Shown piece after piece: positions 3,053 through 38,295 of a DNA stretch of 40,415 nt (position 1 is its first letter; every line of letters begins with the position of its first letter). The DNA comes from a virus: IMG/VR virus record IMGVR_UViG_3300031857_000467, positions 1 to 40,415 of that record; one strand, 5' to 3'. A model generated the notes under the pieces. The model was not told the DNA's origin. It saw nothing but the letters and a program-made list of their open reading frames with translations, and did not search any database. Both the position numbers and the translations under genes were made by a program.

Positions 3053-3086
3053 TATTATCAAACAACCCCCATTTTGAGAGGCAAAA

Positions 3087-5762: not shown

Positions 5763-5772
5763 GGAATAGATC

Positions 5773-6789: not shown

Positions 6790-6791
6790 AC

Positions 6792-8756: not shown

Positions 8757-8759
8757 TCT

Positions 8760-11700: not shown

Positions 11701-14700
11701 ATGCGTTGGCAGAGCTTAAAGACCGCCGTAAAGACCTTGGCGATGAGTTAAGAAAACTGCGTGCTGCCAAACCATCGGTCAAAGAAGAGAATAGACTGGC
11801 CAAAGAAGTCACGCCAGAGATGGCGGAGATGCAACAACAGTTGGGCAACATTGAGCGCCAACTTAAAGGTCTGTCTGTTGAGTCCGAGAGAGGCAATATC
11901 CGCGCACAGTTGCTAAAAGCTCGTGACGACCTAAAGGCAAAAATTGCCGCTGGCACACCAGAGGAAGAAGCTGCAACAGCAACAGGCCAACGCGAACTGA
12001 CAGGTATTCAGCCCAAGCGTCTGGCTCCTACATTGCGTGAGATAACGCCCGAAGAACTGACCGAGGCACGTACTGCGTTTGTGGCTGCAGAAACTAAAGT
12101 TGAAGAACTGAAGAAAGCTGTGCGCAATACAGAGGCGTTGCAAGAGAACCCACAGTACTTCCGCGAACTGGCAACTAGGCTAAAAAACGAAGTAGACCAG
12201 TACAAGCTAGAGTCTAAAGACTTCCCCAATAGTTTTCTATTAGAGAGAGCTAAAGCAGATTACGCAGCACGCGAACAAAACGCACGCTACTTTAATATGT
12301 TGGCTGACTTGTCCGAACAAGGTCAGGCCGATTTACAAGCAGTTCAAAAAGAACTGGCGCAAGCGCAAAAAGCTTTGCCTAAAGCAGAAGCCGCGTTCCG
12401 TGACTTAGAGCGTCGCCAACGTATGCAACAGCAACAACAAGCGGATGTGGCTGGCACTACTCCCGGACAAGTGGAAGCGGAGCGCATCAAAGCAGGCCAG
12501 TCTCGTGAGTTTAGAACGCCTCAAGGCAAGACGCTTATCAAGCCTAAAGAAGCAAAAAGTTGGGACATTAAACAGCAGTCTGTTGCGCCTGTGGCCAAAG
12601 TGCCAGAAGTTGTTAAAGCACAAAAAGCCCTGTCAAGGGCAGTAGAAATTGCACGGATGTCTGGCAAAGAGCTTGTAACCGCTCGCGGCAAGTTAGCCGA
12701 GTCCGGTGTTACGCAAGAAGTACAGCAACTTCAAAAAACAGTAGCAGATATTGAGCCGTTTGTTAAAGGCACGTTTTCCGAAGAAAATGTTAAAGCTATT
12801 GACGACGAACTAGCAAAGATTGACGCAGTACTGCAAGAGCGCGGGTCTAATAAACAGAAAGCGCCGTCTCCTGTAATAGCCAAACACAAGGGGCCTCTGC
12901 CAAGAGACTATGCGGCTACTATTGATTTTGCGGAAAAAGAAGCTCGTAGCGAATACAACGCGGCTAAGAAAGTTAGCGATGCCGCACAAGTTGCGTATGA
13001 GACTGCTCGTAAAGGAATAGATAACCTGCCTTCTATGGCTTCTGGTCTTGAGTTTGGCCGCTTAGACAGTGCGATGACCCGTGCTGCAAGTGCGACGGAA
13101 AAGCTGTTGCCTAAGACACAAGCCGCAGAGCTTACGTACTTAGCGGCGCGTCGAGATAATTTGACTTTGAACAGGTTGTTGGGGCAAGACTTGCGTGAAG
13201 CATTTGTAGATGCAAGCGCTAGATTGGCCAAGGCTTTGAACAGAGAGTCACCTCTAGTCAAACAAATTGAGGAAGCTAGAGCCACTGCCGCTAAAGCCGA
13301 GAAGGCACGCGCAGAAGCGGAAGCCAAAGCTCGTGAAGAAGAGCGCAAGCTTCAAGCTGAGAGAAATGCTGGCGATGCCGAAAAACAAAAAGCACTGGAC
13401 GCTGCCAAGGCTGAGCAAGAGCGCCTTGAGAAAGCCAAGGCATCTGGCGCTGCGTACGACACACGCCGCTTTACCCGCGATACTTCTGGCCCCCAGATGA
13501 CGGCTGAGCTTAACCGCCTCAAGAAAGACTTGGCGGCGGCGGATACAAACTTGGGCAAAGCCCGAGAGAAAAACAACGTTGAGGACATTAAGAAGTATCA
13601 AGACGAATACAACCGGCTTGAGTCCAATATTGACACCATTTACGCATCGGCACCTATTATTGAGCGTGATCTAGATCAAGAGGCGGGCCCACAGCCAGAC
13701 GCTGCGGAAGGTATGCGTTTGCCTGCTCGTAAAGAAGGCCCTGTTGTTCGTAACTTGGCTGGCGCTAAGCGTATTCGTCAGTCAGGGGTAATTAAACTTA
13801 GAGCCGAGGGCCTGTCACAAGAAGCTGCAAACGCAGTGCATTTGTTTACAGTCAAAGCACGTTTGGATGGCGCTACTGATGCCAGCCGCGCTAAGTTAGA
13901 GACTGCTTACGCAGAAGCTACCGAAGGTTTAACAGACGAGCAAGTGGCTAATCAACTGGCTGAAGGTAAGCGTTTGTTAGGTCAAGGCCCCACTATTGAG
14001 ATCATTGCTGCTCGTGAGCGCTATCGTCAGTCGGTGATTGAGCTTGAGAAAGCCCAGAAAGATTTTGACGAAGCCAAGACTCCTGCAACCAAAGAGTTGG
14101 CGCAAGACGCTCTTGACCTTGCCAATCAGCGTAGCGATGCCGCAGAGGAAGCGTACAAGAATGCGCGTGATATTCGTGCGTCTAAAGCCCTTAAAGGCGG
14201 TGCGCAAGCAGAAGTTGAAGCCGCGTTGGATGCCGCTACTGCCAAGCAAGAAGCCGCTACACTGCCAGAGATTGACGAAGAAGGCCCGATCCAAGGTGCT
14301 GCAACCCAGTACACGGAGATGGATCAGGCTCAGTTGTCTGACACAGCCAAGGAAGCCATTGCAGATGGGCGCTTGCTCGATGCTGTTAATGATGTGGCTG
14401 AGAACGGCCAGACTGACTTCGTTCGTCAGAACGCCAAGAACATTGTCAACATGTTGCTTCGCACCAAGGTAGTCATTGATCCTAACTTGGTCGATGCTTA
14501 CGGCAACCCTGTACCAGCGTTTTACAACAACGTAACCAACACCGTGTCGTTTAGACCCGGAGAGCTGACAGAAGAGAACCTGATTCACGAAGTGACCCAC
14601 GCCGCATCACTACGCGGTTTGGTTATGCCTGCTGCTGATTTGACTAAAGAACAACTTAATGCACGCAATGAGTTGAACGCCATGTTCAACCAACTGAAGA

Positions 14701-17534
14701 AAGATAAGGCGCTGGTAAACGAATACGGCTTGACTAACGTAGCCGAGTTTGCCTCTGAAGTACAGTCCAACAAAGACTTCCGTGACCGCATCAACCAAAA
14801 GCCTTGGTTTGGCGGCAACATGCTGTCCCGTTTCTTCCAAGCTATTTTGCGTTTGGTGGGCTTTAAAACTGGCCAAGTCACCACGGATGTTGCGACCAAG
14901 AACATTGAAGCGCTGTACATGCCTGCGCAGAAGTTTGAAATGGTTGACCAGATTAACGCGCCATCGGTCTTTAGAACTAAAGCGCCAGCAGTTACCTCGG
15001 TCATTGTTGGCCAAGAAGCGGGTAGGGGCACATCGCTTAAAGAAAACTTGTTTGGCCTTGGTGGTCGCGTACAGTTGATTGACCGCTTGGCTGCAACCGA
15101 TGCCGCTATTGTGGCTGGTGAAGGCGCGGGTAAGTTGTCTTCTACTGAAGCTTTCCAAACGCAGTACTTCCTGCGTTTAGCCGATAACACAACGCAGACA
15201 GCCGGTCAGTTCATTACGCACGGCCCCGTGTCAATCGTGGCAGACAAGACTGCTTTGGGTACAGAGTATCGCTACCAGTCATCGACTGGCGCTAACCTTG
15301 TACAAATGACTGAACATTTGGAGGATGCTTCCAAAGCCGGTTTGGGTGCCGATGCTGAGCGCATACTGACCGTGCAGGTGGCTGGAGATCGTGCGAACGC
15401 TACGCCTAATGGCTGGGCACGCTTGTTATCTTCTGATCCTGCGGCAGCTAAAGCCGAGTACCTTAGAGACCAAGCCACATTAGCGGCAAACCCCGAAGCT
15501 AAGAAAAGCATTGACGCTGCCAAGGCGGTGTACAAACAGTACAACAACGGCCTTATAGACTTTATAGTCCAGTGCGGATTTATTTCCAAACAGGAAGGCG
15601 CGCGCCTGAAACAGACGCCGTTCATTCCGTTCTATCGTATCGAGAACAACGAGGTCAAGCTGTTTACCGACAGGGAAAGCAGCATCCGTATTGGCAACAT
15701 CAAAGAGAACCCAGACTTGCAACGCATGTTGGGCGATGAGAAAACCATTCTGCCAATCTTGACCAGCGCTGTTCAGAACACGTTCATGCTGTCCCGTGCC
15801 GGTTTGCGGAACCAAGCTACGCATAAAACGTCTGATGCGCTATACAAGGCTGGGTTTGCATCCAAGATCGGCAAGGGAAGCGGCCCCGCAGGTACTGATG
15901 TAGTTCGTTACAAAGTTGATGGCGATGATTACTTTGCTGTAATTGATTCCGACACGTTTGGCATCCCCGCCCATTTGATTGTCAAGGGCATGGAAGGTAT
16001 CAAGACCACCATCCCAGAGATCGTGCGCATGATGGGCATACCGGCTGATTGGGTGCGTAAGTTTGTGACCCGCAGTCCTGCCTACGCTATTCGTCAGTTG
16101 ATCCGTGACCCTCTCAATGCCGCTATTGTTGGTGGTGTAGATGGCGTGCCGGTACTTAACGCATTGAAGCAGTTGGCTAAAATGCGCGCTGGTCGCAGCC
16201 CTGCTGAAGACGCGTTGATGCGCGGTCTGGCTATCAGTAGCAACATTTACACGGGCGACGAGAAAGACATGCAGAGGTTCTTGCAGGACATCAGCACAGG
16301 TCGTGGTAAGTGGGACAAGATGCTTGGCATGCTAGATACTGTGGCGCTTCAAGCTGACGCGGCTACCCGCGCTACCATCTACGAAGACTCCTTGAAGAAA
16401 GGCTTGACCGAAGCGCAAGCGCAGTTCCGTGCGTTTGAGTCTCAGAACTTTAGCCGCCGTGGGTTGTCGCCAAGTATCCAGATGCTGAGCACAATGGTTC
16501 CGTTCTTTAACGCGCAGATTCAGGGCTTGGATGTTCTGTATCGTTCGTTCAAAGGCGACATGCCTTTCTCTCAGCGTTTGGAAATCCAGCGTAAGATAAA
16601 AATGCGCGGTGTCATGTTGATGGCCGGAACCTTGGCGTATGCCTTGATGATGGAGGACGACGAAGACTACCGCAAGATGCCGCCTGAAGTTAAGTATGGC
16701 AACTGGTTTGTGCGCATTCCGGGCGTCAAAGACCCACTTAAGATTCCAATTCCGTACGAGGTGGGTATCTTGTTCAAGGCGTTGCCCGAAGCTATCCTTG
16801 ATGTGGCGCGGCGTGATACCAAGGCCAAGGAAGCCATTAAAGGGTTGGGCATGCTGCTCTGGCAGTCCACTCCGGGCGTTATACCCGTGGCCGGCAAGCC
16901 GTTCATTGAAGGTGCTATTGGTGCTACACCGTTCGGCCCGATCGAGTCGCCAAGGGAAAAAGAGTTGCCACCCGCCATGCGTTACCGCGAAGAGACAACC
17001 GAAGTGGCCAAAACCTTGGGTTCGTTCACCGGAGCCGTGGGCGTGTCGCCCCTGATGATTGAGCACTTTGTGCGTAGCTACACAAGCTCATTGGGGCTGT
17101 CAGCGTTGCACATGCTAGACCCAGCCCTGCGCTCCTCGACAGAGGGCGCGAAAGCCTCAACGTCGGCCAGCAAGTTGCCGTTCGTGGGCGGCTTGTTCCA
17201 GTCAGCCGATGGCCGCTTTATCGTCGACCGCGCATACAACCGCGTGGAAGAAGTGGTGCAAGCGCAAAAGGGCTATGAGGACTTGGAAAAGCGCGGCAAG
17301 AGAGCCGAGGCCAAGGCATGGGCGCAGGAGTATGCGTCGCTGTTGGCTCAAGCTGATATGGCTGGAAGCTTCAAGAAAACTATGGGGGAGATGTTCACCG
17401 ATGAACGTACGATACGCGCTGACTCTAGGCTCTCAACAGAGCGTAAAGACGAGCTAATCGCACGCATCAAAGCGGCGCAGAATCGAGAGGCCGAGGCTTT
17501 CTATCGGGCAACCGAAAGAAGAAAACCCCAGTAA
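8760..17534 (+). CDS. Giant polyvalent ejection protein with HExxH metallopeptidase and LPD38-like region
   Basis: At 2924 residues this is by far the largest gene. The N-terminus carries a short PDGRTVEFPDSVSKEKAAEI motif at residues 8-27 and Gly/Ala hydrophobic segments near 95-150. Residues about 280-1830 are almost continuous charged coiled coil. An HEVTH zinc-protease motif lies at 1943-1947, followed by VAEFASE with Glu1996 and Glu2000 as candidate third ligands, as in metallopeptidase-like domains of phage polyvalent proteins. The C-terminal region has AIRQLIRDP near 2441 and VPFFNAQIQGLDVLYRSF around 2580-2597, matching my memory of the large polyvalent-protein-associated domain LPD38. 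Proteins of this class are packaged in the virion and enter the host with DNA. A hairpin follows the stop. The protease call rests on motifs only. Confidence 0.8.
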   Translation: MSYTVALPDGRTVEFPDSVSKEKAAEILREQLGIGGSPEEGFVPAVKAGISGLKSAGAALAGRTGVMDTERAKQIMAEEEAYQQRTFKPTEKGWSGAPLTKFSELLGGSLPYVAAPLIAGGAAAVGGAPALVASGLGALASGAQFTGQFLKRQTEEGTPLEQTNLAAAAGAGTVAGALDLLSFKMFPAIRGIFSAAGKELSQDAAEQIAKQGMAKMLGDYTKATGKAIGAESTTEVAQQFLERLQAGLKLDDEQARNEYWESLIGGAVLGGALAPAGRFIERGRIKTQQAEAGRAEQAKQVQAQEAEKQRLEQEKQAYRQTPEYLDEIQTRYADVQKQEADLLARLKGKPAEGDLAAAADKKEARDQIRELRKSDEYTGTIEEYRSARKAIEERDQEATRKTAFAEANKVPGAQQDLFGELPAAKDSSPVGQLRTLDSQIKGLDAQLADAKKTGDQAQIQALTNQQFDLQKQFQSMAPTPTAYAAMQTTVNKQIENLRTKLQAATSTEDMERLVGSIKQNKEALAELEQLKPFVAEAPKQTDVASRDVEIKDLRKKVTRYQELGDDEAIAKLLPRLKELEAVPTLMEGDQFRNVPTDDLFAAEIDDGAKEARETRESVEAEIEKLREMSERVKTTSPVTQAYRDRELAKARSLLSLFEESEQDWNKLKQDPANTEYRDDRDKLKETLEKDIKALEKRDIPEGTVMPTREMFELNVKRKALKNLNRRMEAADRFKDTTPFAQNIIDERTDENVASLLDYYLPKLKPAQEGFAKQTNRAAMAKEAKELRAKVHDGLIDLYDAVKIKDGLAIRKTKDQFFFDAERLVNINRILGNGKALEREAKIGLREQLLEVTDDIQSTVTNLTRSRVQLRTLDREIADIGRPSSDEQAQALSAMEKRRDTLALNVKKLQAKTGWEDKSDAIIDRYSDVIADERELVRGQRQLPIERVEGAANRIDEVTRELRLVNERVQKAGRPTDEAKMNALAELKDRRKDLGDELRKLRAAKPSVKEENRLAKEVTPEMAEMQQQLGNIERQLKGLSVESERGNIRAQLLKARDDLKAKIAAGTPEEEAATATGQRELTGIQPKRLAPTLREITPEELTEARTAFVAAETKVEELKKAVRNTEALQENPQYFRELATRLKNEVDQYKLESKDFPNSFLLERAKADYAAREQNARYFNMLADLSEQGQADLQAVQKELAQAQKALPKAEAAFRDLERRQRMQQQQQADVAGTTPGQVEAERIKAGQSREFRTPQGKTLIKPKEAKSWDIKQQSVAPVAKVPEVVKAQKALSRAVEIARMSGKELVTARGKLAESGVTQEVQQLQKTVADIEPFVKGTFSEENVKAIDDELAKIDAVLQERGSNKQKAPSPVIAKHKGPLPRDYAATIDFAEKEARSEYNAAKKVSDAAQVAYETARKGIDNLPSMASGLEFGRLDSAMTRAASATEKLLPKTQAAELTYLAARRDNLTLNRLLGQDLREAFVDASARLAKALNRESPLVKQIEEARATAAKAEKARAEAEAKAREEERKLQAERNAGDAEKQKALDAAKAEQERLEKAKASGAAYDTRRFTRDTSGPQMTAELNRLKKDLAAADTNLGKAREKNNVEDIKKYQDEYNRLESNIDTIYASAPIIERDLDQEAGPQPDAAEGMRLPARKEGPVVRNLAGAKRIRQSGVIKLRAEGLSQEAANAVHLFTVKARLDGATDASRAKLETAYAEATEGLTDEQVANQLAEGKRLLGQGPTIEIIAARERYRQSVIELEKAQKDFDEAKTPATKELAQDALDLANQRSDAAEEAYKNARDIRASKALKGGAQAEVEAALDAATAKQEAATLPEIDEEGPIQGAATQYTEMDQAQLSDTAKEAIADGRLLDAVNDVAENGQTDFVRQNAKNIVNMLLRTKVVIDPNLVDAYGNPVPAFYNNVTNTVSFRPGELTEENLIHEVTHAASLRGLVMPAADLTKEQLNARNELNAMFNQLKKDKALVNEYGLTNVAEFASEVQSNKDFRDRINQKPWFGGNMLSRFFQAILRLVGFKTGQVTTDVATKNIEALYMPAQKFEMVDQINAPSVFRTKAPAVTSVIVGQEAGRGTSLKENLFGLGGRVQLIDRLAATDAAIVAGEGAGKLSSTEAFQTQYFLRLADNTTQTAGQFITHGPVSIVADKTALGTEYRYQSSTGANLVQMTEHLEDASKAGLGADAERILTVQVAGDRANATPNGWARLLSSDPAAAKAEYLRDQATLAANPEAKKSIDAAKAVYKQYNNGLIDFIVQCGFISKQEGARLKQTPFIPFYRIENNEVKLFTDRESSIRIGNIKENPDLQRMLGDEKTILPILTSAVQNTFMLSRAGLRNQATHKTSDALYKAGFASKIGKGSGPAGTDVVRYKVDGDDYFAVIDSDTFGIPAHLIVKGMEGIKTTIPEIVRMMGIPADWVRKFVTRSPAYAIRQLIRDPLNAAIVGGVDGVPVLNALKQLAKMRAGRSPAEDALMRGLAISSNIYTGDEKDMQRFLQDISTGRGKWDKMLGMLDTVALQADAATRATIYEDSLKKGLTEAQAQFRAFESQNFSRRGLSPSIQMLSTMVPFFNAQIQGLDVLYRSFKGDMPFSQRLEIQRKIKMRGVMLMAGTLAYALMMEDDEDYRKMPPEVKYGNWFVRIPGVKDPLKIPIPYEVGILFKALPEAILDVARRDTKAKEAIKGLGMLLWQSTPGVIPVAGKPFIEGAIGATPFGPIESPREKELPPAMRYREETTEVAKTLGSFTGAVGVSPLMIEHFVRSYTSSLGLSALHMLDPALRSSTEGAKASTSASKLPFVGGLFQSADGRFIVDRAYNRVEEVVQAQKGYEDLEKRGKRAEAKAWAQEYASLLAQADMAGSFKKTMGEMFTDERTIRADSRLSTERKDELIARIKAAQNREAEAFYRATERRKPQ

Positions 17535-28758: not shown

Positions 28759-29505
28759 TTATAAAGTTCCTTGTGTTTGATCGTTCTTGACAGGTATAAC
28801 TGCACCTTCAAACATGTACGTGCCGAAGTGTCCAAGCTTGACCCAAGGTGCGGCGTATATCTTGATGCCGTTAGCTCTGCACAGCCTGCAGAACGCATAG
28901 TCCTCGGACAGTTGGCGGTTGACCTCTGGATCTTTCTGCAAGTAAAAGTACTCGCCAATCTCACGATCGTCGCAGTCCTCTTCAATGAAGCGCTCAACCT
29001 TATCCTTCAAGGTATCAAACACGCTACGCTTAATCAGCATAAAGCCTGTGCCACCACCATACACTTCAGCAGGTTCACTGGCCGATACAGTGGCCGTCTC
29101 GCCATAGCCCACAAGGTTGACAACCAACTTGCCTGTGTAGTTTGTAAGCTCTTGCGGTGGTACGTTTTGACGTACGGCATCGTTGACCATTTCCCAGTTG
29201 ATCTGCTTCTTGGGATAGATACCGCACAGCACATCCTTGTCAGCCTTGACCATACTCACAATGTCCATTGGATTGAATCTAATATCCGCATCAATGAACA
29301 TCAGGTGAGTGAAGTCGTGTTGCATAAAGATGTCCGCCAATACATTACGTGCGTGTTGAACCAAGCTGTTGTTCATAATGAAAGCAAACGAGGCTTCCAT
29401 GTCGTTCATAGCCATGGCTACAGGCACAGTAATCATTGAGCGTGTGTACTCGCCCCCGCACATACCGCCGTACATCGGCGTGGCAATCATAATTTTTGGT
29501 TTCAT
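28759..29505 (-). CDS. GT-A type glycosyltransferase
   Basis: The 248-residue protein has the layout of a small GT-A fold glycosyltransferase: a first strand KIMIATPMYGG, helices, then the metal/nucleotide-sugar DxD motif in LMFIDADIRF (Asp72, Asp74). An acceptor-side block EVYGGGTGFMLIKRSVFDTL and a late RQLSEDYAFCRLCRANG segment typical of the catalytic Asp/Glu region follow. It has no signal peptide or membrane helix, so it acts in the host cytoplasm. Phage enzymes of this kind glycosylate DNA bases, virion proteins or host surface precursors; the target is not visible here. It stands among replication genes, which makes DNA or a replication protein a possible target, but this is inference. 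Confidence 0.82.
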   Translation of the reverse strand: MKPKIMIATPMYGGMCGGEYTRSMITVPVAMAMNDMEASFAFIMNNSLVQHARNVLADIFMQHDFTHLMFIDADIRFNPMDIVSMVKADKDVLCGIYPKKQINWEMVNDAVRQNVPPQELTNYTGKLVVNLVGYGETATVSASEPAEVYGGGTGFMLIKRSVFDTLKDKVERFIEEDCDDREIGEYFYLQKDPEVNRQLSEDYAFCRLCRANGIKIYAAPWVKLGHFGTYMFEGAVIPVKNDQTQGTL

Positions 29506-30309: not shown

Positions 30310-30951
30310 TCAGCCCCCAAACATCTGCTTCAAGTGCACATACAACTCATGCGCCTGATACACAGTCATGTCTGACAAAATGTCATGTGGTGTTTTATTA
30401 CGCACAAGCTTTGTGAGAAATTCGCGTTGTGTCGTGTGAAGTAATGGCTCAGACGCAACGGGCGTGGGTGTGTTCTCCAGCTTCTCACGTAGCAACGCAC
30501 CGATGCCTGTCACGGCTTTCTTCTCGTACTTGCGCTTGGGTGGTGCTACTGGGGCTTCCATCTTCCTGAGTGCTTTGAGCGACTTGATTGGGCGGTACTC
30601 GGGGATGTCTGCGTAGTAGGCGCTATTGGTTTCATGGATCATGTTATTACGGCGCATCTGTGCGATGAGGCTCGATGTTGACCCACCCGCAAACCCTTGA
30701 TGCTCTAGCGCATCGATGATCTCCTTGCGAGTCGAGCCGGGGTTGTTCTTGATGTAATTGAAAGTTACACGGGAGATGTTGTTGGTTATGCCGAAGGTTT
30801 TTTTCACGGGAATTCCCTGAGTTGGTTGTGGGGTAGGTGGTACAGACACTGGTTGCACAGAGGGAGAATGGGGAAAGGTTTCCCCATCGTCGTCCCATTC
30901 CTGTAAGGTTGTTCTAAGTGCGGTCTTGAGCGCAGTTTGCATGTCAGGCAT
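30310..30951 (-). CDS. Winged-helix-like DNA-binding protein (putative)
   Basis: The 213-residue protein has a short acidic N-terminus, a Pro-rich linker (residues 28-48), then a likely winged-helix domain at about 52-118 (VTFNYIKNNPGSTRKEIIDA, then GSTSSLIAQMRRNNMIHETN). This is the pattern of a helix-turn-helix followed by a wing. The C-terminal third is basic, then helical. It could be a regulator of phage genes. A copy of the GGGGAAA-NN-TTTCCCC palindrome is embedded in the coding sequence at 30870-30885, encoding part of the linker (GETFPHS). The gene overlaps the preceding membrane-protein gene by 8 bases. Confidence 0.65.
   Translation of the reverse strand: MPDMQTALKTALRTTLQEWDDDGETFPHSPSVQPVSVPPTPQPTQGIPVKKTFGITNNISRVTFNYIKNNPGSTRKEIIDALEHQGFAGGSTSSLIAQMRRNNMIHETNSAYYADIPEYRPIKSLKALRKMEAPVAPPKRKYEKKAVTGIGALLREKLENTPTPVASEPLLHTTQREFLTKLVRNKTPHDILSDMTVYQAHELYVHLKQMFGG
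30870..30885. repeat. GGGGAAA-NN-TTTCCCC palindrome, copy 1 (inside a gene)
   Basis: GGGGAAAGGTTTCCCC falls inside the coding sequence of the winged-helix-like protein, in its Pro-rich linker. It is the only copy of the family inside a gene and the farthest left. Confidence 0.8.
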
Positions 30952-31162
30952 TTGAGGTTCCTCCTGTTATTAGCATGACGATTACGATGAAAGCAATGAG
31001 TCCGAGGGACTGTATTGTGGTGAGCAAGAGGTCATCCATCCCCTGCTTGTCGCCAAGCAATACGCCCTGTATCCAGTCGGACTCAGGCGTACATTCAGGG
31101 GGTGGTGGGGTATAGGTTAGGCCGATCTTGACCTTACCCGTGTCGTAGGGTGGGTTGTTCAT
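30944..31162 (-). CDS. Small single-pass membrane protein
   Basis: The 72-residue product has a Pro-rich hydrophilic N-terminus (TYTPPPPECTPESDWIQ) and one C-terminal transmembrane helix of about 19 residues (SLGLIAFIVIVMLITGG), with a very short tail. There is no signal peptidase motif. It is the first gene after the TGTC-N8-GACA operator and TTGACA promoter at 31183-31212, so it would be made early and under repressor control. Possible roles are host takeover at the inner membrane, superinfection exclusion or lysis timing. The sequence does not decide between them. Confidence 0.7.
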   Translation of the reverse strand: MNNPPYDTGKVKIGLTYTPPPPECTPESDWIQGVLLGDKQGMDDLLLTTIQSLGLIAFIVIVMLITGGTSNA

Positions 31163-31182
31163 TATTTTCTCCTTGAGTGAAT

Positions 31183-31212
31183 ATTATTTGTCCAAGAGTA
31201 GACAGATGTCAA
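31183..31212 (-). promoter_or_regulatory. Consensus leftward promoter overlapped by TGTC-N8-GACA operator
   Basis: On the leftward strand a perfect -35 TTGACA (31207-31212) is followed at 18 bases by AATAAT (31183-31188). The palindrome TGTCTACTCTTGGACA (31189-31204) fills the spacer. It is the strongest promoter-like sequence I see in the window, and the operator position is that of a classic steric repressor site. Confidence 0.7.
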
Positions 31213-31294
31213 TAGGGTCTCCAGTATAAAAGATCCAGTATTAGTACAATCACGGATAACAAAAGTACTACTCTTTCTGTTTTCTCCCATGGCG

Positions 31295-31594
31295 TTAGCA
31301 TTCTTCGTGCTCCTTATCTACATAGGCGGGATTGCCTGTTTGGAATCGATACTCTTTGGCATCTTTCTCAGCGTCATGCTCGTTGTCAAACACACCAAGT
31401 ACTGTGTGGTTGTGGTTTCTAACTACGTACTGCACCTTGTCAATCAACTCGGTGTCGTACACCTCGCCTTCACCGATGCGTGCCTTGGTAATGTCAAACT
31501 CATCGAACGCTTTGTTTCCAGCATCGGCACTGCTATCGGCTTCAACCTCTACTGTTTGCCAGTAGGACATAACTACTTGTACTCTGTACTTCAT
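31295..31594 (-). CDS. Small conserved phage protein, 99 residues
   Basis: The product starts with a beta-alpha-beta pattern, YRVQVVMSYWQTVEVEADSS then AGNKAFDEFD. I recall that pattern from many phage small proteins and from DpnD/PcfM-like domains, where a strand of Val/Glu repeats is followed by a helix with conserved Ala. The C-terminal half is acidic. No catalytic residues are seen. Its ATG overlaps the stop of the 52-residue gene upstream (ATGA). It is the last gene before the 31183-31212 promoter. Confidence 0.65.
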   Translation of the reverse strand: MKYRVQVVMSYWQTVEVEADSSADAGNKAFDEFDITKARIGEGEVYDTELIDKVQYVVRNHNHTVLGVFDNEHDAEKDAKEYRFQTGNPAYVDKEHEEC

Positions 31595-31749
31595 TTGGTA
31601 CTCCCATAAAAATTAACACAGGCAATCCAAGCTGCCCGCCATATTTCAAACATCCGCCCTTGGCATGGGAAATCCTTGACCCTGTAATCAGCGAAGGTAT
31701 CCTTGCACCACTTGCGGTACTCGATCTTGATACGTGTCTCAGGTTTCAT
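31591..31749 (-). CDS. Small hypothetical protein, 52 residues
   Basis: A short gene with a strong GGAGAAAGAAG site before its ATG. The product is basic and aromatic (KIEYRKWCKDTFADYRVKDF, then MFEIWRAAWIACVNFYG). The FEIWRAAWIAC helix resembles a helix found at the end of many tiny phage proteins. It lies directly after the terminator at 31774-31791 and is coupled by ATGA to the next gene. The regular packing and ribosome site support it; function is unknown. Confidence 0.65.
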   Translation of the reverse strand: MKPETRIKIEYRKWCKDTFADYRVKDFPCQGRMFEIWRAAWIACVNFYGSTK

Positions 31750-31773
31750 CTTCTTTCTCCTTTGGTTAAAAAT

Positions 31774-31791
31774 GCGGGGGCGAACCCCCGC
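31774..31791 (-). terminator. Strong intrinsic terminator after the amidotransferase gene
   Basis: Leftward, GCGGGGG-TTCG-CCCCCGC forms a perfect 7-bp stem with a UUCG loop, followed by ATTTTTAA. It lies 6 bases past the stop of the amidotransferase gene. It should end or strongly reduce transcription from the amidoligase operon before the small genes at 31749. Confidence 0.85.
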
Positions 31792-31797
31792 TACGAG

Positions 31798-32904
31798 TCA
31801 AGCCAGCAGTGCAGGCAAGACGGGCTTGAGTACCAAGGGCTGGCGTACATCCCATTGCAGGTAGTAGCAGATCACCTCGGCAACGATGCTGACTGCGCCG
31901 TACGACTTGGTCACTGAACTGATAAGACCAGACGCATCACCCTCGATCAGCATATCGTAGACACCCTGCTCAGTAGTACACAAGTCATCACGATGTGTGT
32001 ATCCCAAAGGCTCAGGCGTGTAGCAGTGCAGTAGCGTAGTGATTGTGTACGCAGGCATCTGGTCAAGCCAGATCTCCATCGTCTCTACGTCAGCCTCGGT
32101 CAACGCAGTAGCAATGTCGTCAGGCGTAGGTTGCACGAAGCCATCTTCGTCATCGGGAAAGTCAAACGCTGTCTCGTCGTAGTTGGCGCTGTGTGCGCTG
32201 ACACTGCGTGGGTGGATGCCGAAGCTTGCGTTGTAGTCGTACATCTCGTCGTACTCGTCATCCATGAAGCTACCATAGCTGCTTGCATACTTGTATGACT
32301 TGAGTGTAGCACTCTTGTAGCTAGGGATCAGGCGTGATGGCGTCCAAGCATAGGTGTTGCTGAACCACATATCGTCATGCTCGATACCCTGATCGAAGTT
32401 GACGTGTTGCATACGACCCTCGCCATTCATGAACACAAAGCGATTGTTGCCGATGAACTCCTCGAGCATAGCAACGAAGCCTGTGTCATACACAAGGTCA
32501 GGTGATGCAGACACAGCGCTGTGCAAGTAGTCCTTGATGAAGTGCCACGTATCTGACTTGGTCTTGTCAGCAGCATTACCTGTGTGCAGGATGCCGTTGT
32601 GCATCATGGCAATGAAGCCAGGAATCACGTCATACGGATGGCAGTTAATCATGTCAGTCTTGCCGTGCGTAGTCCAGCGGAAGTGTATAGCAATCTCACG
32701 ATCATCTTGAGGCAGGCGCTGAATGAATGCAGTAGCATCGCCAAGATTCTTGGGCAAAGTCTTGGTGACCTTGAGACCCTTGGCTGAACCATACATGAAC
32801 CCGATGCCATCAGGATTGGATGTGAAGATGTCGCTCAGTAGCCCGTGTGTGTTAAGCAGGGTTGAACGAACTGTGGAAGACTTGCCAGTAATAATGAGAC
32901 ACAT
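31798..32904 (-). CDS. Class II glutamine amidotransferase-like Ntn hydrolase
   Basis: The first 200 or so of 368 residues form a glutamine amidotransferase class II domain, which releases ammonia from glutamine. The nucleophile Cys2 follows the start Met (MCLIITGKSS). Substrate and oxyanion elements are Arg76 in AIHFRWTTHG, NCHPYDV at 88-94, MHNGIL with Asn103-Gly104, and Asp118 in KSDTWHF. These match the family spacing. Residues about 205-368 form an extra acidic, aromatic-rich region I do not recognise. The gene follows the amidoligase gene, with a GGGGAAACCTTTCCCC palindrome between them. The natural reading is that it feeds ammonia to, or edits a product of, the amidoligase. Confidence 0.85.
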   Translation of the reverse strand: MCLIITGKSSTVRSTLLNTHGLLSDIFTSNPDGIGFMYGSAKGLKVTKTLPKNLGDATAFIQRLPQDDREIAIHFRWTTHGKTDMINCHPYDVIPGFIAMMHNGILHTGNAADKTKSDTWHFIKDYLHSAVSASPDLVYDTGFVAMLEEFIGNNRFVFMNGEGRMQHVNFDQGIEHDDMWFSNTYAWTPSRLIPSYKSATLKSYKYASSYGSFMDDEYDEMYDYNASFGIHPRSVSAHSANYDETAFDFPDDEDGFVQPTPDDIATALTEADVETMEIWLDQMPAYTITTLLHCYTPEPLGYTHRDDLCTTEQGVYDMLIEGDASGLISSVTKSYGAVSIVAEVICYYLQWDVRQPLVLKPVLPALLA

Positions 32905-32930
32905 AATAAAACTCCTTGATGTAAAAGAAT

Positions 32931-32946
32931 GGGGAAAGGTTTCCCC
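32931..32946. repeat. GGGGAAA-NN-TTTCCCC palindrome, copy 2
   Basis: GGGGAAAGGTTTCCCC lies between the amidoligase stop and the amidotransferase start. With its flanks (AAT on one side, GTT on the other) it forms a 22-base unit identical to the copy at 35089. Confidence 0.85.
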
Positions 32947-32963
32947 GTTTGGTTGTTGTTGAA

Positions 32964-35060
32964 TTAAACAGGTTGTGCTTCAGACACTGTGTATGAAGAC
33001 TGCGCAAGTGAAGCAGCAAACCCCTCGTTCATAAGAACCCACAAATCATTGACACGCATATAGACAACATCGCCACTGCTGATGGTGTCTAGGTCACCCC
33101 CGTAGGGGAAGTACGCATACTCAGAGCCTGCGTAGGTAGCGAAGCGGAAGTACAGACCTTGACGAGTGACCCATGACCTGATAGCCTCAGCCTCGTTGTC
33201 GTAGGGTATGTGCACTGGGTAGTCTCTGTCATGCCTGTCCTCTGTATGCTCGGGTGTCCACGGCGCAGGGGGCACAGCGTCAGTGCAAGTGTCCATCGCT
33301 GGCGCTATGACTGTCGGTGTGGATGTGTGTATTTGACGCACGCCATACCACTTGACTAGCGCAGGGTACTGACCCGCCACAGTCTTGAGCCACTTGACAA
33401 ACGATGTGCCGTTGAGATCACGCCACGATGCGACACGGCAGAACATGACAGACGCATGAGTGAACTCGATCTGTGCAAGCAGACGTTCCTTCTTGAGTGA
33501 TGCACGGAAGATGCGTAGCTCGACTGTGTTGTACTTGCCGTTGTAGCTGTTGTCCATGCTAAGACCAAGACGCTGAGCCTCACGACCACCGAGGTTGCAC
33601 ATGTTGACCATGCGATAGCGCTCACCAGACTTACCCTTGACCGCCTTCTTGGGGTTGGTAAGGATCGACTGATGCTCTGCCGCACAGTAGCTACGAGCTT
33701 GGTCATCGACAGATGGATGACGACCTGCAATCTTACGAATGAAGTCGACGTTGGCACTGCTGTTGATGAACATCAAGAACTTACCCAGCGTCAACTGCGT
33801 GAAGGCACGAGAGTCGATGTGTACGTGCATACCGCACTTGCCTGTGTTCCATGCACGATAGGCTGGGTCGATGATCCAGTTCTTGAACTTGTCGATGTGA
33901 AGTGCAAGACCTTGCGGTGAAGTCACAACCTCGAAGCCATTGTGCGGTAGCGAGCCGTCATGCTTGATGATGCAGTATGTGGATCCAAGACGGCTACGCA
34001 CAGACTCAGCAGCTTCGTTGCAGTCATTGTCACCCGAGGTCATCTCAAGCTCGATGCCTAGCGTGAACTCACCGAAGTGCGAAGACGTGATGCCAGAGGG
34101 ATAGTCAAGAACACGAAGCACATTGGTAGAGTACGACATGATCGGCTGATCGCTGTCGTCTTCATCATCGTCATCCTCGTTGTCGTCATCCTCGTCACGA
34201 TCATAAGAGTAGTAGGCATCACGAGACTCTGAGTAGTACGCATCATCACGAGGCCAGTACTCGTTCTCATCCTCAACAAACACAGCGTTGTCGTCGAAGC
34301 ACGAGTCGCACCATGTGTCGTTACGCACCTCGTGTGTGTTGTCGCTGTCCTCGTAATGACCACAGTCGCAGTGCGTAATGCCCATGTCCCCCATACCCTC
34401 GATGGCAGTGAACGCATTCTCGATGTGACTGCCAGCCTCGCTGTAACGACCAGACAACTCAAAGAACGCAGAGCGAAGCTCATCGTTGGTGATGGACTCA
34501 TCGCCTGCCTTGGCACGAGCAACAAGCCGTCCGAAGTCTGCGTAATGCTTGCGAGCAATCTTGAAGTAGTCCTTGCTGTGCTCGTAGTACCAACTGTCCT
34601 TGAACCTAGCGCTAGGTATAGGAGGTGACTGGTCTAAGGTAGGGTCATTCTTCTTGGCATAAGCCTCAACGACTTTGTCGACACGAGTAGACAAAAGACT
34701 GCGAGCAAGCCGTGGCAGATCCGCAACGATTGTGGGTGTCAACAACCTGCGCATCATCTGATGCAGATCGTAGCGATCACGACTCTCGACAACAGCCATC
34801 CTGTACGTGATGTGCGATGGTGCAAAAGCTCCCTCACCCATGACACGATAGCGTGAGGTACGAGTCCACGCACACAGGTTCTCTAATGTAACGAGATCGA
34901 GAGGCGACTGACCTGCATCCATGTGCTTCACAGTATCCATGACAAGACGCCTACGGGATGCGTTGTACACCATGTAGCGTTTGTTGAGGGATACGATGTA
35001 GATCGTCTGCTCGAGTGAGTCAATGTAATCTTCCATCACGAATCTAGTTATCTGAAACAT
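32964..35060 (-). CDS. Amidoligase (COOH-NH2 ligase) with N-terminal zinc-binding and acidic regions
   Basis: The 698-residue protein carries a glutamine-synthetase-fold amidoligase domain at about 325-560. It shows TLGIELEMT (Glu337, Glu339), KHDGSLPHNGFEVVTSP (Asp368, Glu377), CGMHVHID (His412, His414) and NTVELRIFR (Glu514, Arg516). This family joins carboxyl and amino groups in peptides using ATP. Upstream lies a Cys group (HCDCGH with Cys231/Cys233 and WCDSC with Cys251/Cys254), likely a zinc site, then Tyr/Asp repeats (DDAYYSESRDAYYS) and an Asp/Glu tract to about residue 315. The first 200 residues are helical and unassigned. Known amidoligase neighbourhoods often pair it with an amidotransferase, as here. 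The substrate is unknown. Confidence 0.85.
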   Translation of the reverse strand: MFQITRFVMEDYIDSLEQTIYIVSLNKRYMVYNASRRRLVMDTVKHMDAGQSPLDLVTLENLCAWTRTSRYRVMGEGAFAPSHITYRMAVVESRDRYDLHQMMRRLLTPTIVADLPRLARSLLSTRVDKVVEAYAKKNDPTLDQSPPIPSARFKDSWYYEHSKDYFKIARKHYADFGRLVARAKAGDESITNDELRSAFFELSGRYSEAGSHIENAFTAIEGMGDMGITHCDCGHYEDSDNTHEVRNDTWCDSCFDDNAVFVEDENEYWPRDDAYYSESRDAYYSYDRDEDDDNEDDDDEDDSDQPIMSYSTNVLRVLDYPSGITSSHFGEFTLGIELEMTSGDNDCNEAAESVRSRLGSTYCIIKHDGSLPHNGFEVVTSPQGLALHIDKFKNWIIDPAYRAWNTGKCGMHVHIDSRAFTQLTLGKFLMFINSSANVDFIRKIAGRHPSVDDQARSYCAAEHQSILTNPKKAVKGKSGERYRMVNMCNLGGREAQRLGLSMDNSYNGKYNTVELRIFRASLKKERLLAQIEFTHASVMFCRVASWRDLNGTSFVKWLKTVAGQYPALVKWYGVRQIHTSTPTVIAPAMDTCTDAVPPAPWTPEHTEDRHDRDYPVHIPYDNEAEAIRSWVTRQGLYFRFATYAGSEYAYFPYGGDLDTISSGDVVYMRVNDLWVLMNEGFAASLAQSSYTVSEAQPV

Positions 35061-35088
35061 ATACTTCTCCTTGATTTATATAAAGAAT

Positions 35089-35104
35089 GGGGAAAGGTTT
35101 CCCC
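35089..35104. repeat. GGGGAAA-NN-TTTCCCC palindrome, copy 3
   Basis: GGGGAAAGGTTTCCCC lies 28 bases upstream of the amidoligase start on the leftward strand, before its AAGGAG ribosome site. The central pair is GG. Confidence 0.85.
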
Positions 35105-35128
35105 GTTGAACTAACACACACCTGTTGC

Positions 35129-35368
35129 TCAGGCTACAGCTACCTCCATGTGATCTATTACATCGTACGAATCCACCTCGAATGTGCGATGCTCACCTTC
35201 GATTGGGTCACCAGCGTTGAACACGTAGAACGTGTCGTGGTACTTCTTCAGCACCTCGTCACGCATCGAGTCGGACAACTCGGGCGGTACGACTAAGGCG
35301 TTAGCCGTGAATGGGTTATTGAATGGGGCTGTGTATCTCCCGTGTATACGGATACGGATTACTCTCAT
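35129..35368 (-). CDS. Small hypothetical protein, 79 residues
   Basis: I start this at the ATG at 35368, whose ATGA overlaps the stop of the upstream gene and follows an AAGGAG site, rather than at the far upstream in-frame ATG that would run through that gene. The product begins MRVIRIRIHGRYTAPFNNPF and has an alpha/beta pattern ending in DSYDVIDHMEVAVA. It is unrecognised. It is the last gene of its coupled run before a palindrome and the amidoligase gene. Confidence 0.65.
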   Translation of the reverse strand: MRVIRIRIHGRYTAPFNNPFTANALVVPPELSDSMRDEVLKKYHDTFYVFNAGDPIEGEHRTFEVDSYDVIDHMEVAVA

Positions 35369-35553
35369 TTGTTTTCTCCTTCTGGTTGATAATCTTCGCA
35401 ACGATCTGCCACTGTCCGTAGATGGGCGTCCATCGCTTGGTTTTCCTCTGTGCTCATAGACACACGCTGAACTAACTGCCCCTTGAAGCAAGCAAGCCCT
35501 GTGTTGTAGCCCCATGTGTGCGTTGAGCGTTCGCAGTTCCTACATGATTTCAT
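35365..35553 (-). CDS. Small Cys-containing protein, 62 residues
   Basis: The product opens with MKSCRNCERSTHTWGYNTGL (Cys4, Cys7) and has Cys22 and Cys52 (GLACFKGQ and DRCEDYQ). This gives a possible four-cysteine metal site, or a small conserved phage protein ending in an acidic tail. GGAG precedes the ATG, and the gene is coupled at both ends by ATGA overlaps. No function is assigned. Confidence 0.7.
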   Translation of the reverse strand: MKSCRNCERSTHTWGYNTGLACFKGQLVQRVSMSTEENQAMDAHLRTVADRCEDYQPEGENK

Positions 35554-35657
35554 TTTCTTTCTCCTGTTACGTAGTCAACTAAACCCTTCTTACGCATCTT
35601 GTTCAGCCAGCGTTTGTAGTAGCGGATGAACTCTTTCTCTTTGGTGCTTGGTCTCAT
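35550..35657 (-). CDS. 35-residue basic micropeptide
   Basis: Very short, with AGGAG 6 bases before its ATG. It starts within the stop of the upstream gene (TAATG) and ends overlapping the next start (ATGA). The product, beginning MRPSTKEKEFIRYYKRWLNK, is strongly basic and helical, and could bind nucleic acid or a host protein. The double coupling and good ribosome site make it likely to be translated. Confidence 0.6.
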   Translation of the reverse strand: MRPSTKEKEFIRYYKRWLNKMRKKGLVDYVTGERK

Positions 35658-35890
35658 TACTTACTCCTGTTGTTGATTGCATCCAGTGCCTCGTCAGCGC
35701 ACGCACACCATGATTGCCAGCTTATGAACGCCTGTGCTGCCCACTCGGGGTTACTCTTGGATGCCTGCACTTGCTTGGCGTAGTTGGCTATGGCCTCGAT
35801 GAGGAACGCCTGCATGAGCACGCCCTGCTGTGAGTGCGTCATGAGTCCGTTGATAAGTTGCACGTTTGTTTTGTGTTTGACTTTGGTCAT
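35657..35890 (-). CDS. Small conserved phage protein, 77 residues
   Basis: Starts at the ATG at 35890 behind an AAGGAG site (a longer version reaching 35962 would run into the upstream gene). The product has LINGLMTHSQQGVLMQAFLI near residues 11-30 and ends SWQSWCACADEALDAINNRS. I recall this helical pattern, with a hydrophobic helix then a WxxCA helix, from many small phage proteins of unknown function. It is coupled to the next gene by TAATG. Confidence 0.7.
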   Translation of the reverse strand: MTKVKHKTNVQLINGLMTHSQQGVLMQAFLIEAIANYAKQVQASKSNPEWAAQAFISWQSWCACADEALDAINNRSK

Positions 35891-35901
35891 TTGATTCTCC
35901 T

Positions 35902-36297
35902 TCAGTTGTTGCTGTACACATATGCTTTGAGCGCACGGATCGCCTGCTCGGGCGTACCGCACTCACCTAAATCTCGCTCGCTGAAGCACGTCTCACCTGA
36001 TGCCCAGCCTGCCTCGGGCGGTACGCCTGCAAACAGCCAGTCCTCGCCATCCCACAAGGCGGTGGTCTTAGACCAATCCCATTCGTCTTCTAGTTGATCC
36101 TCCCAATACTCCTGCACACTACGTTTCATGTGTGGTAACTCGTTGACGCACTCGGTCAGTAAGTCAATCAGCCCTTGCCGATCTATGTCGCTACCTACCC
36201 ATGTGCTGACCATGATGGGCGTGACTACGTCTTGCTTCTCCAATTCATGGATCTCGTCTTTGAGATTGTCGATACGGGTTCTGATGCTTGTGCTCAT
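35902..36297 (-). CDS. Hypothetical protein, 131 residues
   Basis: The chosen start is the ATG at 36297 after AAGGAG; an upstream in-frame ATG at 36348 lacks a site. The N-terminal 30 residues are a charged helix (RTRIDNLKDEIHELEKQD). The rest is acidic and Trp-rich (VQEYWEDQLEDEWDWSKTTA, then WDGEDWLFAGVPPEAGW), suggesting a small protein-binding domain. It is unrecognised. A GGGGAAA-NN-TTTCCCC palindrome lies in the gap upstream. Confidence 0.65.
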   Translation of the reverse strand: MSTSIRTRIDNLKDEIHELEKQDVVTPIMVSTWVGSDIDRQGLIDLLTECVNELPHMKRSVQEYWEDQLEDEWDWSKTTALWDGEDWLFAGVPPEAGWASGETCFSERDLGECGTPEQAIRALKAYVYSNN

Positions 36298-36367
36298 TTC
36301 ATTTCTCCTTGATCGGGCAGTTTGAGGATGGTCATCGGCGTTGCCCAAGTGCCGAGACCGAGGGAAT

Positions 36368-36383
36368 GGGGAAAGTTTTCCCC
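36368..36383. repeat. GGGGAAA-NN-TTTCCCC palindrome, copy 4
   Basis: GGGGAAAGTTTTCCCC lies in the gap between the genes starting at 36297 and ending at 36410. The AAT and GTT flanks are as in copies 2 and 3; the central pair is GT. Confidence 0.85.
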
Positions 36384-36409
36384 GTTGTGAGAGCAGACAC
36401 TGGTCGTGC

Positions 36410-37105
36410 CTACTCTCCCAAATCTAAGGTGTTCCATGTTGCGGGTACTACGTCATGTGGTTGCATAGCGTCAATAATCTTGAGAGCTTTCTTTATGCGT
36501 CTCATCTTGTCTTCTCGCTCGTCGGTTGGTGCGACTATGTGTTTGCGCTCGAGCGTATCCATCTCTTTGAGCGTAGCCTTCAATAATCTTAGCTTTGCCT
36601 TGGCGTGCTGATCGAGCAGCATTGTGCGTTGGAAGGGTAGTTTGCGCTTAGCCTTCGCCTTGTGCGGTAGGGACATGAAGGCGTTGTGTATGGGTTCTTT
36701 GATTCGGTGCGGTATCCAATCAGTCCAGTGCTCGCCCTCGTTGGGCAGGTTCTTGTCTTTGGCTAGTTGCATGGGCGTTTGCTCAAGCTTGCGTGATGGA
36801 TGTGCAAAGCGGTTCAATAGTTTCTCCATCACGGCTATGTACGCATCGAACACCTCAACACGCTCTTCATCATCGAGATCGTAGGCACGCCCAACCTTGG
36901 CACTGTTGAGTTCATAGCGTAGCGGTTTGAGTACGTTGTCCCATGCAAGCTTGCGCTGATGGCGTGTGATCTTGTCGACACGCATCTTTTCCTTCATCTG
37001 CGTGACTGCGTCCTTGATGTGCGTGATCTCCGCAGGGTGCAGTTTGCGCTTCAATAATCTTTGATGAAGCTCGTTTGGCGTGAGGTTGAGGTATGTTTCG
37101 TACAT
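36410..37105 (-). CDS. Basic hypothetical protein, 231 residues, carrying iterons
   Basis: I start this at the ATG at 37105, since GGA at the end of AAAGGA lies 9 bases upstream and longer versions run into the non-coding region. The product (MYETYLNLTPNELHQRLLKR at the start) is helical and rich in Lys and Arg, with no motif I know. The gene contains three copies of the 9-mer TCAATAATC (36471, 36580, 37051), in two reading frames, so the repeat is not kept for its protein sense. A fourth copy fills the space between the ribosome site and the ATG. The protein could bind these sites, as many iteron-binding replication proteins are encoded beside their sites; this is speculation. Confidence 0.65.
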   Translation of the reverse strand: MYETYLNLTPNELHQRLLKRKLHPAEITHIKDAVTQMKEKMRVDKITRHQRKLAWDNVLKPLRYELNSAKVGRAYDLDDEERVEVFDAYIAVMEKLLNRFAHPSRKLEQTPMQLAKDKNLPNEGEHWTDWIPHRIKEPIHNAFMSLPHKAKAKRKLPFQRTMLLDQHAKAKLRLLKATLKEMDTLERKHIVAPTDEREDKMRRIKKALKIIDAMQPHDVVPATWNTLDLGE

Positions 37106-37503
37106 GATTATTGATCCTTTCAAAGTACAGGTGGACATTTTACCCCGAATCTGTCCTGTGTATATCGTAGCGGACTATTCGGTAGACACCCGCTAGACCG
37201 CATGGATACTCGCTTGCTCGGTAAATGTGTCACGCTATCTACCTTTTTGTGGGAGAGCACTTGGGCTTGTCTTTTAAAAGAAGTCCAAGCAAAAGAAAAA
37301 GAGCTCACCCCCATAAATATACTTCTATATATATATATATATATTAAAAAGATAGATAGATTGCCACTTTTTTGAGCCACGCTAATATCCATGCGGGTTG
37401 CGAGGTGTCTACCTGATCGTCCAGTACGCAATACACATGGATATCGTGAAAAAACAAGATTATTGACGTCAATAATCATAGTGATGGGGAAAGCTTTCCC
37501 CAT
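37106..37503. other. Non-coding AT-rich gap, candidate replication origin
   Basis: About 400 bases without a convincing gene. The gap holds one iteron at 37106, a (TA)9 run at 37326-37344 in an AT-rich stretch, the perfect palindrome GATTATTGACGTCAATAATC at 37458-37477 made of two facing iterons, and a GGGGAAAGCTTTCCCC palindrome at 37486-37501. Read leftward, the 20-base palindrome is followed by TTGTTTTTT, so it could also act as a terminator for the gene at 37504. Iterons next to an easily melted tract are typical of origins, hence the call; it is inference. Confidence 0.5.
37486..37501. repeat. GGGGAAA-NN-TTTCCCC palindrome, copy 5
   Basis: GGGGAAAGCTTTCCCC, a perfect palindrome, ends 2 bases from the stop of the gene at 37504-37725 and lies 8 bases from the 20-base iteron palindrome. 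Confidence 0.85.
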
Positions 37504-37725
37504 TCAAGAGAACAGGGGCAGTTGTGTGGGCTGTTTGCCTATCCATTCGAGTGCTGCTTCATCGGTGCTGAACACACGCCCTCTCTCGGCTAGGTTCTTG
37601 CTGAATACATAGACAACGTAGTTGCTACCGCCATTGGGGTAGTGGTATTGCAAGTGGTACTCACGTGCGCCGATTTGCACGATGCCTACTTCTTTGGTGC
37701 GGTATTGGTTGAATAGTTGGTACAT
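37504..37725 (-). CDS. Small hypothetical protein, 73 residues
   Basis: Starts at the ATG at 37725, 6 bases after AAGGAG; a longer frame upstream covers the repeats and is unlikely to be coding. The product (MYQLFNQYRTKEVGIVQIGA, then YHLQYHYPNGGSNYVVYVFS) is a compact beta-rich fold with Tyr and Val strands. It is unrecognised. An iteron lies directly before its ribosome site, so its expression may respond to whatever binds the iterons. Confidence 0.65.
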   Translation of the reverse strand: MYQLFNQYRTKEVGIVQIGAREYHLQYHYPNGGSNYVVYVFSKNLAERGRVFSTDEAALEWIGKQPTQLPLFS

Positions 37726-37787
37726 GATGGACTCCTTAAGATTATTGAAAGGTTGCGTGTGAACGCATTGGACAAGAAATGAAACAA

Positions 37788-37808
37788 CGCAAGAGCCCCG
37801 CCCTTGCG
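37788..37808 (-). terminator. Possible weak terminator
   Basis: CGCAAG and CTTGCG pair around a 9-base loop in the gap between two leftward genes. Read leftward, TTGTTTCATTTC follows. The stem is short, so this is tentative. Confidence 0.35.
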
Positions 37809-37823
37809 CTGATCTGGAAGAAC

Positions 37824-37839
37824 GGGGAAACTTTTCCCC
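37824..37839. repeat. GGGGAAA-NN-TTTCCCC palindrome, copy 6
   Basis: GGGGAAACTTTTCCCC lies 7 bases past the stop of the gene at 37847-38260, next to an iteron at 37845. The central pair is CT. Confidence 0.85.
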
Positions 37840-37846
37840 ATTATGA

Positions 37847-38260
37847 TTATTGAAACTGAACAGCATCACGCAACTTAGTCAACAAAGCGTTGAACTCATC
37901 ACGTGTTAGCCCTGCGTCAATAATCTCTGAGGTAATGTTGCTCAGTAACTTCCTAGGAACTGCGACTGCCTCCTTGCTACCGCTACTGCTTGCCTTGCCA
38001 CAGATGCCAACGACAAGATCATAGAGATCACGCTTGGCGTTCTCATAGTTCTCTGCACTCGATTCGAACACCTTGCTACCCTTAGCCTTGCCCTCGCCAT
38101 CGACTAGCTTCACACTCCAGAACTTGCCCACAAGTGGCATGAGTGTTGCCCGCACAGTCTCACGAGACTTGCGCTTGAGTTCCTTCGTGAGATCAACGAT
38201 GGCTTGGGCTTTGGATACTTTGGACTTGCAATACAGATTGACATTGGTTTGAACTGACAT
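37847..38260 (-). CDS. Hypothetical protein, 137 residues, first gene of the leftward block
   Basis: The product (MSVQTNVNLYCKSKVSKAQA at the start) is basic and mostly helical, with a beta-rich centre (MPLVGKFWSVKLVDGEGKAK) and a C-terminal helical pair (DEFNALLTKLRDAV). No known motif is seen. AGGAG precedes the ATG. It is the first gene downstream of the divergent control region, so it is likely the first protein made from the leftward promoter; immediate-early regulatory or host-takeover roles would fit. Its stop codon is part of an iteron (CAATAATC). Confidence 0.65.
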   Translation of the reverse strand: MSVQTNVNLYCKSKVSKAQAIVDLTKELKRKSRETVRATLMPLVGKFWSVKLVDGEGKAKGSKVFESSAENYENAKRDLYDLVVGICGKASSSGSKEAVAVPRKLLSNITSEIIDAGLTRDEFNALLTKLRDAVQFQ

Positions 38261-38279
38261 GACTATCTCCTAGTTGGAT

Positions 38280-38295
38280 GGGGAAACCTTTCCCC
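38280..38295. repeat. GGGGAAA-NN-TTTCCCC palindrome, copy 7
   Basis: GGGGAAACCTTTCCCC lies 19 bases upstream of the first leftward gene, just before its ribosome site. The central pair is CC. Confidence 0.85.

Follow-up and report, generated by a model that had tools for sequence, protein, structure and literature searches.

What does a phage gain from an amidoligase gene and a class II glutamine amidotransferase gene that stand side by side? The question is raised by a virus contig of 40,415 bases (IMGVR_UViG_3300031857_000467, record G000), which is referred to below, over its whole length, as the window and breaks at its right end inside the large terminase gene. Its source is a tailed phage from freshwater, with related phages of up to about 60 kb and with HTVC027P, HTVC023P and DSL-LC04 as closest terminase relatives. 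Terminase and structural genes lie on the + strand, and the replication genes (DNA polymerase A, SNF2-type helicase, DUF927 primase and exonuclease) on the - strand, where the amidoligase and amidotransferase genes sit within the early/replication block (Table 1). Two further reading frames of the window were observed in passing: one for a glycosyltransferase-like protein downstream of the pair (28759-29505(-); phrog_1574, E=1.1e-44, a family without assigned function), and one of 2924 aa in the virion region (8760-17534(+)), possibly encoding a giant ejected internal protein.

Table 1. Features of the amidoligase-amidotransferase locus and of the surrounding palindromes (window positions)
Feature	Position	Strand	Basis or remark
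Intrinsic terminator	31774..31791	-	7 G-C pairs, TTCG loop, T tail
Class II (Ntn) glutamine amidotransferase, 368 aa	31798..32904	-	Catalytic residues, GlmS profile, Foldseek
Palindrome upstream of amidotransferase gene	32931..32946		Pattern search
Amidoligase_2 (PF12224) protein, 698 aa	32964..35060	-	Pfam, fold model, relatives
GS-fold ligase domain, about aa 330-560	33381..34073	-	Invariant GxExE, DGS, GFE, CGxHxH, TxExRxF
Acidic Tyr/Asp-rich segment, aa ~260-305	34146..34283	-	Low model confidence
Probable zinc site C233-x-H235 ... C251-x-x-C254	34299..34364	-	Invariance in 33 relatives
Palindrome upstream of amidoligase gene	35089..35104		Pattern search
Seven GGGGAAAnnTTTCCCC palindromes, whole span	30870..38295		Phage-wide early-region set, outside enzyme module

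The amidoligase consists, in this order, of an N-terminal domain of unassigned kind, a putative zinc-binding segment, an acidic linker, the GS-fold ligase domain and a C-terminal domain. No match to the PDB was found at sequence level; against Pfam it passes the cut-off for PF12224 (29.1 bits versus a gathering score of 22, E=1.2e-6), a family that is matched at E<=0.01 by all 41 aligned relatives. Invariant in these 41, whose alignment spans identities down to 22-29%, are G335-x-E337-x-E339, DGS368-370, G375 and E377, as well as C409-G-x-H-x-H414, N486 and T512-x-E-x-R-x-F518. An AlphaFold2 model (pLDDT 78.5 overall) was built, the alignments for the models of both proteins holding the window and IMG/VR sequences only, with rows from annotated phage records left out. 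Foldseek placed YbdK at the top for this model (E=3e-4, prob 1.00), followed by glutamine synthetase and gamma-glutamylmethylamide synthetase, and the best solved relatives were found at E=3e-4 to 5e-3 and probability 0.97-1.00, with TM-scores of 0.24-0.34 by target length. The low TM-scores obtained for both proteins of the pair (0.2-0.5) are attributed to their extra domains and to divergence. The GS-fold amidoligase announced by the earlier note is thereby borne out, and motifs and model together predict an ATP-dependent carboxylate-amine ligase. The gene is under purifying selection (dN/dS 0.25-0.40). The zinc site that had been claimed for this protein also finds support, since C233, H235, C251 and C254 are invariant across the 33 closest relatives and likely form one site; in the more distant relatives L005, L011, L109 and L110 the same stretch contains several CxxC knuckles.

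In the amidotransferase, Cys2, Arg76, Thr79-His80-Gly81, Asn103-Gly104 and Asp118 are invariant in 30 relatives, which agrees with the intact catalytic residues reported before. Cys2 would be the catalytic residue, exposed once the initiator Met has been removed, and the glutamine-binding residues Arg76 and Asp118 are retained as in true glutaminases, Asp118 being the presumed equivalent, judged by its motif, of the GlmS Asp. The window protein stays below the Pfam cut-offs for GATase_4 and GATase_6 (12.2 versus 27 and 10.8 versus 23 bits), and 15 of the 30 relatives match GATase_4 at E<=0.01. Such a cut-off is the threshold of one library rather than a defining trait of the fold, and the fold match of the modelled protein is clear: Foldseek returned GlmS (E=2.9e-5) and EgtC (E=8.5e-5), both with prob 1.00, for a model with pLDDT 69, and at the level of sequence the best match of the family profile is the GlmS glutaminase (E=1.5e-4). 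Selection on this gene is purifying as well, with a dN/dS of 0.12-0.25 calculated with the out-of-frame rows of L013 and L015 left out.

Both proteins contain disordered, acidic, Tyr-rich inserts, at aa ~260-305 of the ligase (pLDDT<50 at aa 290-304) and at aa 194-255 of the amidotransferase, a C-terminal insert for which the model is unreliable. The long Tyr/Asp-rich insert of the ligase was thus correctly seen by the earlier note, and its presence could suggest that the ligase or its partner is its own substrate, the acidic segments being amidated or cross-linked. However, the inserts vary in length and sequence, and relatives such as L011 are without one, so that self-modification is considered very improbable. 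As a conserved functional element the ligase insert was rejected: some distant relatives have none, and at its place additional CxxC knuckles are seen in L005, L011 and L110. Because of these knuckles, the segment is probably best read as an eroded knuckle with an acidic linker behind it, and not as a new device.

That the two genes form a real unit that is kept together follows from their distribution. In the window their reading frames are 60 nt apart. A scan of IMG/VR with the ligase gave 346 relatives, of which 80 were fetched. Wherever 1200 nt or more of sequence follow the ligase, as in 65 of them, the amidotransferase lies on the same strand, nearly always as the next gene, an adjacency that holds from 100% to about 42% identity. 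Much of this adjacency comes from one phage lineage with a common gene order and therefore counts as one event. Independent recurrence is provided by contigs of the MEP401 type, where the pair is present in 16 of 17 (the remaining one breaks off right behind the ligase) and the frames overlap by about 10 nt in most, and further by L109, L110, L111/L112, phage ctgrD200, the fecal phage contig MT839723 and, in reversed order with the amidotransferase first, L113. The earlier note had named a structure without the GS fold and a lack of co-occurrence in related phages as observations that would speak against it; the predicted structure has that fold, and the two genes do co-occur. Looser arrangements exist too: in L010 the genes are 1.1 kb apart, and in L008 and L009 the amidotransferase is missing from the roughly 5 kb that follow the ligase. 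In L078, two ORFs (9295-10352) lie between ligase and amidotransferase, which is the sole large gap in the lineage of the window. A search for a fused ligase-amidotransferase ORF found none.

The pair is found in bacterial assemblies as well, in an Oxalobacteraceae MAG contig together with phage-like genes, and in a Burkholderiaceae MAG contig (JAIRRE010000169.1; L114 1-4247) beside a TrbC/VirB2 pilin gene, a neighbour which suggests that the pair also travels on conjugative elements. Origin from a host chromosome was rejected: only one of 401 genomes sampled from the family of the Burkholderiaceae MAG had a close ligase, this one being the MAG itself, and the pair is therefore a feature of mobile elements. 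A plasmid-borne pair was likewise rejected for PLSDB, where the only hits were elements of C. difficile, whose amidoligase is distant and which gave no match to the amidotransferase.

Whether the pair is also a self-contained module, framed by its own signals, is a separate matter, in which the earlier note was half right. A strong terminator (GCGGGGGTTCGCCCCCGC-ATTTTT) does follow just past the 3' end of the amidotransferase gene, as had been stated, and the palindromes are present upstream of both genes; the window contains seven of them, however, not two, and they are common to other early genes. The GGGGAAAnnTTTCCCC sites start at 30870, 32931, 35089, 36368, 37486, 37824 and 38280 and occur nowhere else in the window, with 0.17 pattern matches expected by chance. 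In the relatives (L013-L091), GGGG-nnn...nnn-CCCC palindromes stand upstream of early genes, with four to eight in each phage at equivalent places, always symmetric and with different inner bases (GGGGAACnnGTTCCCC, GGGGAGAnnnTCTCCCC, GGGGACAnnnTGTCCCC, GGGGTCAnnnTGACCCC). The agreement of the inner bases is 0.72 within a phage versus 0.16 between phages, a difference reached in none of 300 shuffles. The palindromes are therefore not markers of the enzyme pair, since all seven belong to the early region as a whole and differ from phage to phage, and the set is unconnected with the enzymology of the pair. Likely, they constitute a set of early-gene operators or stoperators, recognised by a phage-encoded regulator of diversifying specificity.

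Two small early proteins, neither with a Pfam or PHROG match, may be this regulator. At matched ligase identity, a 137-aa protein (37847-38260(-)) and a 242-aa protein (36410-37138(-)) are the only ones whose families clearly track the palindrome class, with 51% versus 26% and 68% versus 51% identity, respectively, none of 2000 label permutations reaching either value; the classes are coarsely defined, by two inner bases, and some phages of the AAC class carry the protein type of the AGA class. Tracking by the neighbouring ORF at 37504-37869 is weak (69 of 2000 permutations), and in the permutation test the class was not tracked by the amidoligase, amidotransferase, terminase, polymerase or other genes. 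A winged-helix-looking protein (30310-30951) was rejected as regulator, as it does not follow the palindrome class. The 137-aa and 242-aa proteins are hence put forward as candidate palindrome-binding regulators, and the palindromes, a more promising new lead than the enzymes, merit a separate study.

Returning to the enzymes, from the observed folds, residues and gene coupling we infer, for activity, complex formation, substrate and purpose alike, a minimal two-enzyme amide-forming module in which the amidotransferase supplies ammonia and the ligase amidates a carboxylate of a cytoplasmic target, in the service of superinfection exclusion or takeover; the chances of this reading are about even. 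Upon removal of Met1, Cys2 of the amidotransferase would split glutamine (Gln -> Glu + NH3), the ammonia would be passed to the ligase, and the ligase would activate the carboxylate with ATP (carboxylate + NH3 + ATP -> amide). Because no signal peptide is obvious, as judged by eye, in either protein, the two probably act in the cytoplasm, on a precursor peptide of peptidoglycan, on some other metabolite or on side chains of a host protein, and a finished cell wall is the less likely target. The benefit is probably exclusion of superinfecting phages or takeover of the host. A glutaminase that feeds the ligase is favoured because the glutamine-site residues are conserved and the coupling is strict; counted against it are the low TM-scores, the missing fused ORF, the partnerless ligases of L008 and L009, and the different partner of the amidoligase in Clostridium.

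This last point leads to the main rival of ammonia donation, a rather unlikely one, in which the ligase would couple an amino acid or peptide, through its amine, to a carboxylate in an isopeptide of the gamma-glutamyl type, and the Ntn protein would act as a hydrolase that removes or trims this product, instead of donating ammonia. EgtC, a remover of gamma-glutamyl groups, is among the best fold matches of the amidotransferase, and in Clostridium elements the amidoligase stands with a gamma-glutamyl cyclotransferase, which likewise cleaves gamma-glutamyl amides (PMC3485107, PMC11318856), so that a partner which undoes the work of the ligase would fit equally well. Moreover, RIO-1-like cassettes carry both enzymes, interpreted there as degradation genes (PMC5498523). 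On the other hand, it is the GlmS glutaminase that best matches the amidotransferase by sequence, and there would be little sense in an eraser that one operon always supplies along with the writer, unless their substrates differ.

The location of the pair among replication genes, both in the window and in MEP401/402, brings up another possibility. Ligases are used by phages for hypermodified bases, and the pair could similarly aid the modification of phage DNA bases, or make a small amidated metabolite. This seems quite improbable, however, as no base-modification enzymes were present among the window proteins scanned and the pair also adjoins T4SS genes in the conjugative-element-like contig. 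A known anti-phage defence system was rejected, because PADLOC gave no match to one. A bolder proposal, possible and on the doubtful side, is that the pair is the smallest form of a system which draws on glutamine to amidate a host macromolecule, or to tag it with a peptide, during infection. As a device against the host or for exclusion, it would be spread across unrelated phages and a conjugative element, and its chemistry would be without characterised counterpart.

Cassettes of this kind in phages were reportedly predicted by Iyer et al. in 2009, and since then no substrate has been assigned to them; the literature on the amidoligase-amidotransferase family yielded no biochemical data. The present distribution indicates that two genes suffice to stay together under purifying selection, in hundreds of environmental phages and several unrelated elements, and therefore a two-protein assay is a realistic route to the substrate.

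Among the individual enzymes, the amidotransferase resembles the domains of GlmS and EgtC in its Ntn fold, Cys nucleophile and RWxTHG and HNG motifs, and differs from them in standing alone, with no synthase domain attached and with a C-terminal half that is unassigned. The amidoligase shares the GS fold and the active-site layout of carboxylate-amine ligases with YbdK, glutamine synthetase and gamma-glutamylmethylamide synthetase, to which it adds the probable zinc site and the acidic linker.

As for the gene pair, amidoligase and amidotransferase genes occur together in the LUZ24-like phage UFV-P2 (ORF19-29; PMC3890496) and in phage tf (PMC3517423), and Pseudoalteromonas phage PSA-HP1 (ORF40-47) and other RIO-1-like phages have a 'peptidoglycan modification cassette' (PMC5498523). 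The two-gene unit is named among the auxiliary metabolic genes of the OM43 phages MEP401 and MEP402, both of which are isolates, in a study which credits the phiEco32 cassette to Iyer et al. 2009 (PMC10580990). The role given in this literature is a change of the cell surface against superinfection, as a hypothesis throughout. Like the phiEco32, LUZ24 and RIO-1-like cassettes, which are podoviral, the window pairs an Amidoligase_2 protein with a close class II amidotransferase in an early/replication region. Those cassettes, however, add a COOH-NH2 ligase (PF14395), an ATP-grasp enzyme and a gamma-glutamyl cyclotransferase, and the ligase of UFV-P2 has 385 aa, whereas that of the window, with extra N- and C-terminal parts, has 698. 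None of PF14395, PF06094 and PF14243 was found in the window record or in the related 40-68 kb records searched: PF14395 turned up in L110 alone among the 17 records searched besides that of the window, the cyclotransferase family PF06094 (GGACT/AIG2) was found in 0 of 18 records by a search that was positive in 9 of 14 controls, and R2K_3 (PF14243), the sole ATP-grasp family searched in the relatives, gave none, nor was an ATP-grasp enzyme seen among the window proteins scanned. MEP401 and MEP402 carry the same two-gene unit as the window, at about 22-29% identity, with overlapping frames and in another phage family.

L110 stands midway between the two-gene pair and the larger cassette: its stretch 3049-8980 has two genes each for Amidoligase_2 and for class II amidotransferase, together with a COOH-NH2 ligase of the phiEco32 type (PF14395, E=1.8e-45). 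With its pair next to this ligase and to a second amidotransferase, L110 ties the two-gene pair to the phiEco32-type cassette. The earlier note had implied that such a phage pair is new, which is not supported: similar pairs and cassettes have already been published, and that of the window is related, in reduced form, to the amidoligase-amidotransferase cassettes of the phiEco32/LUZ24 type.
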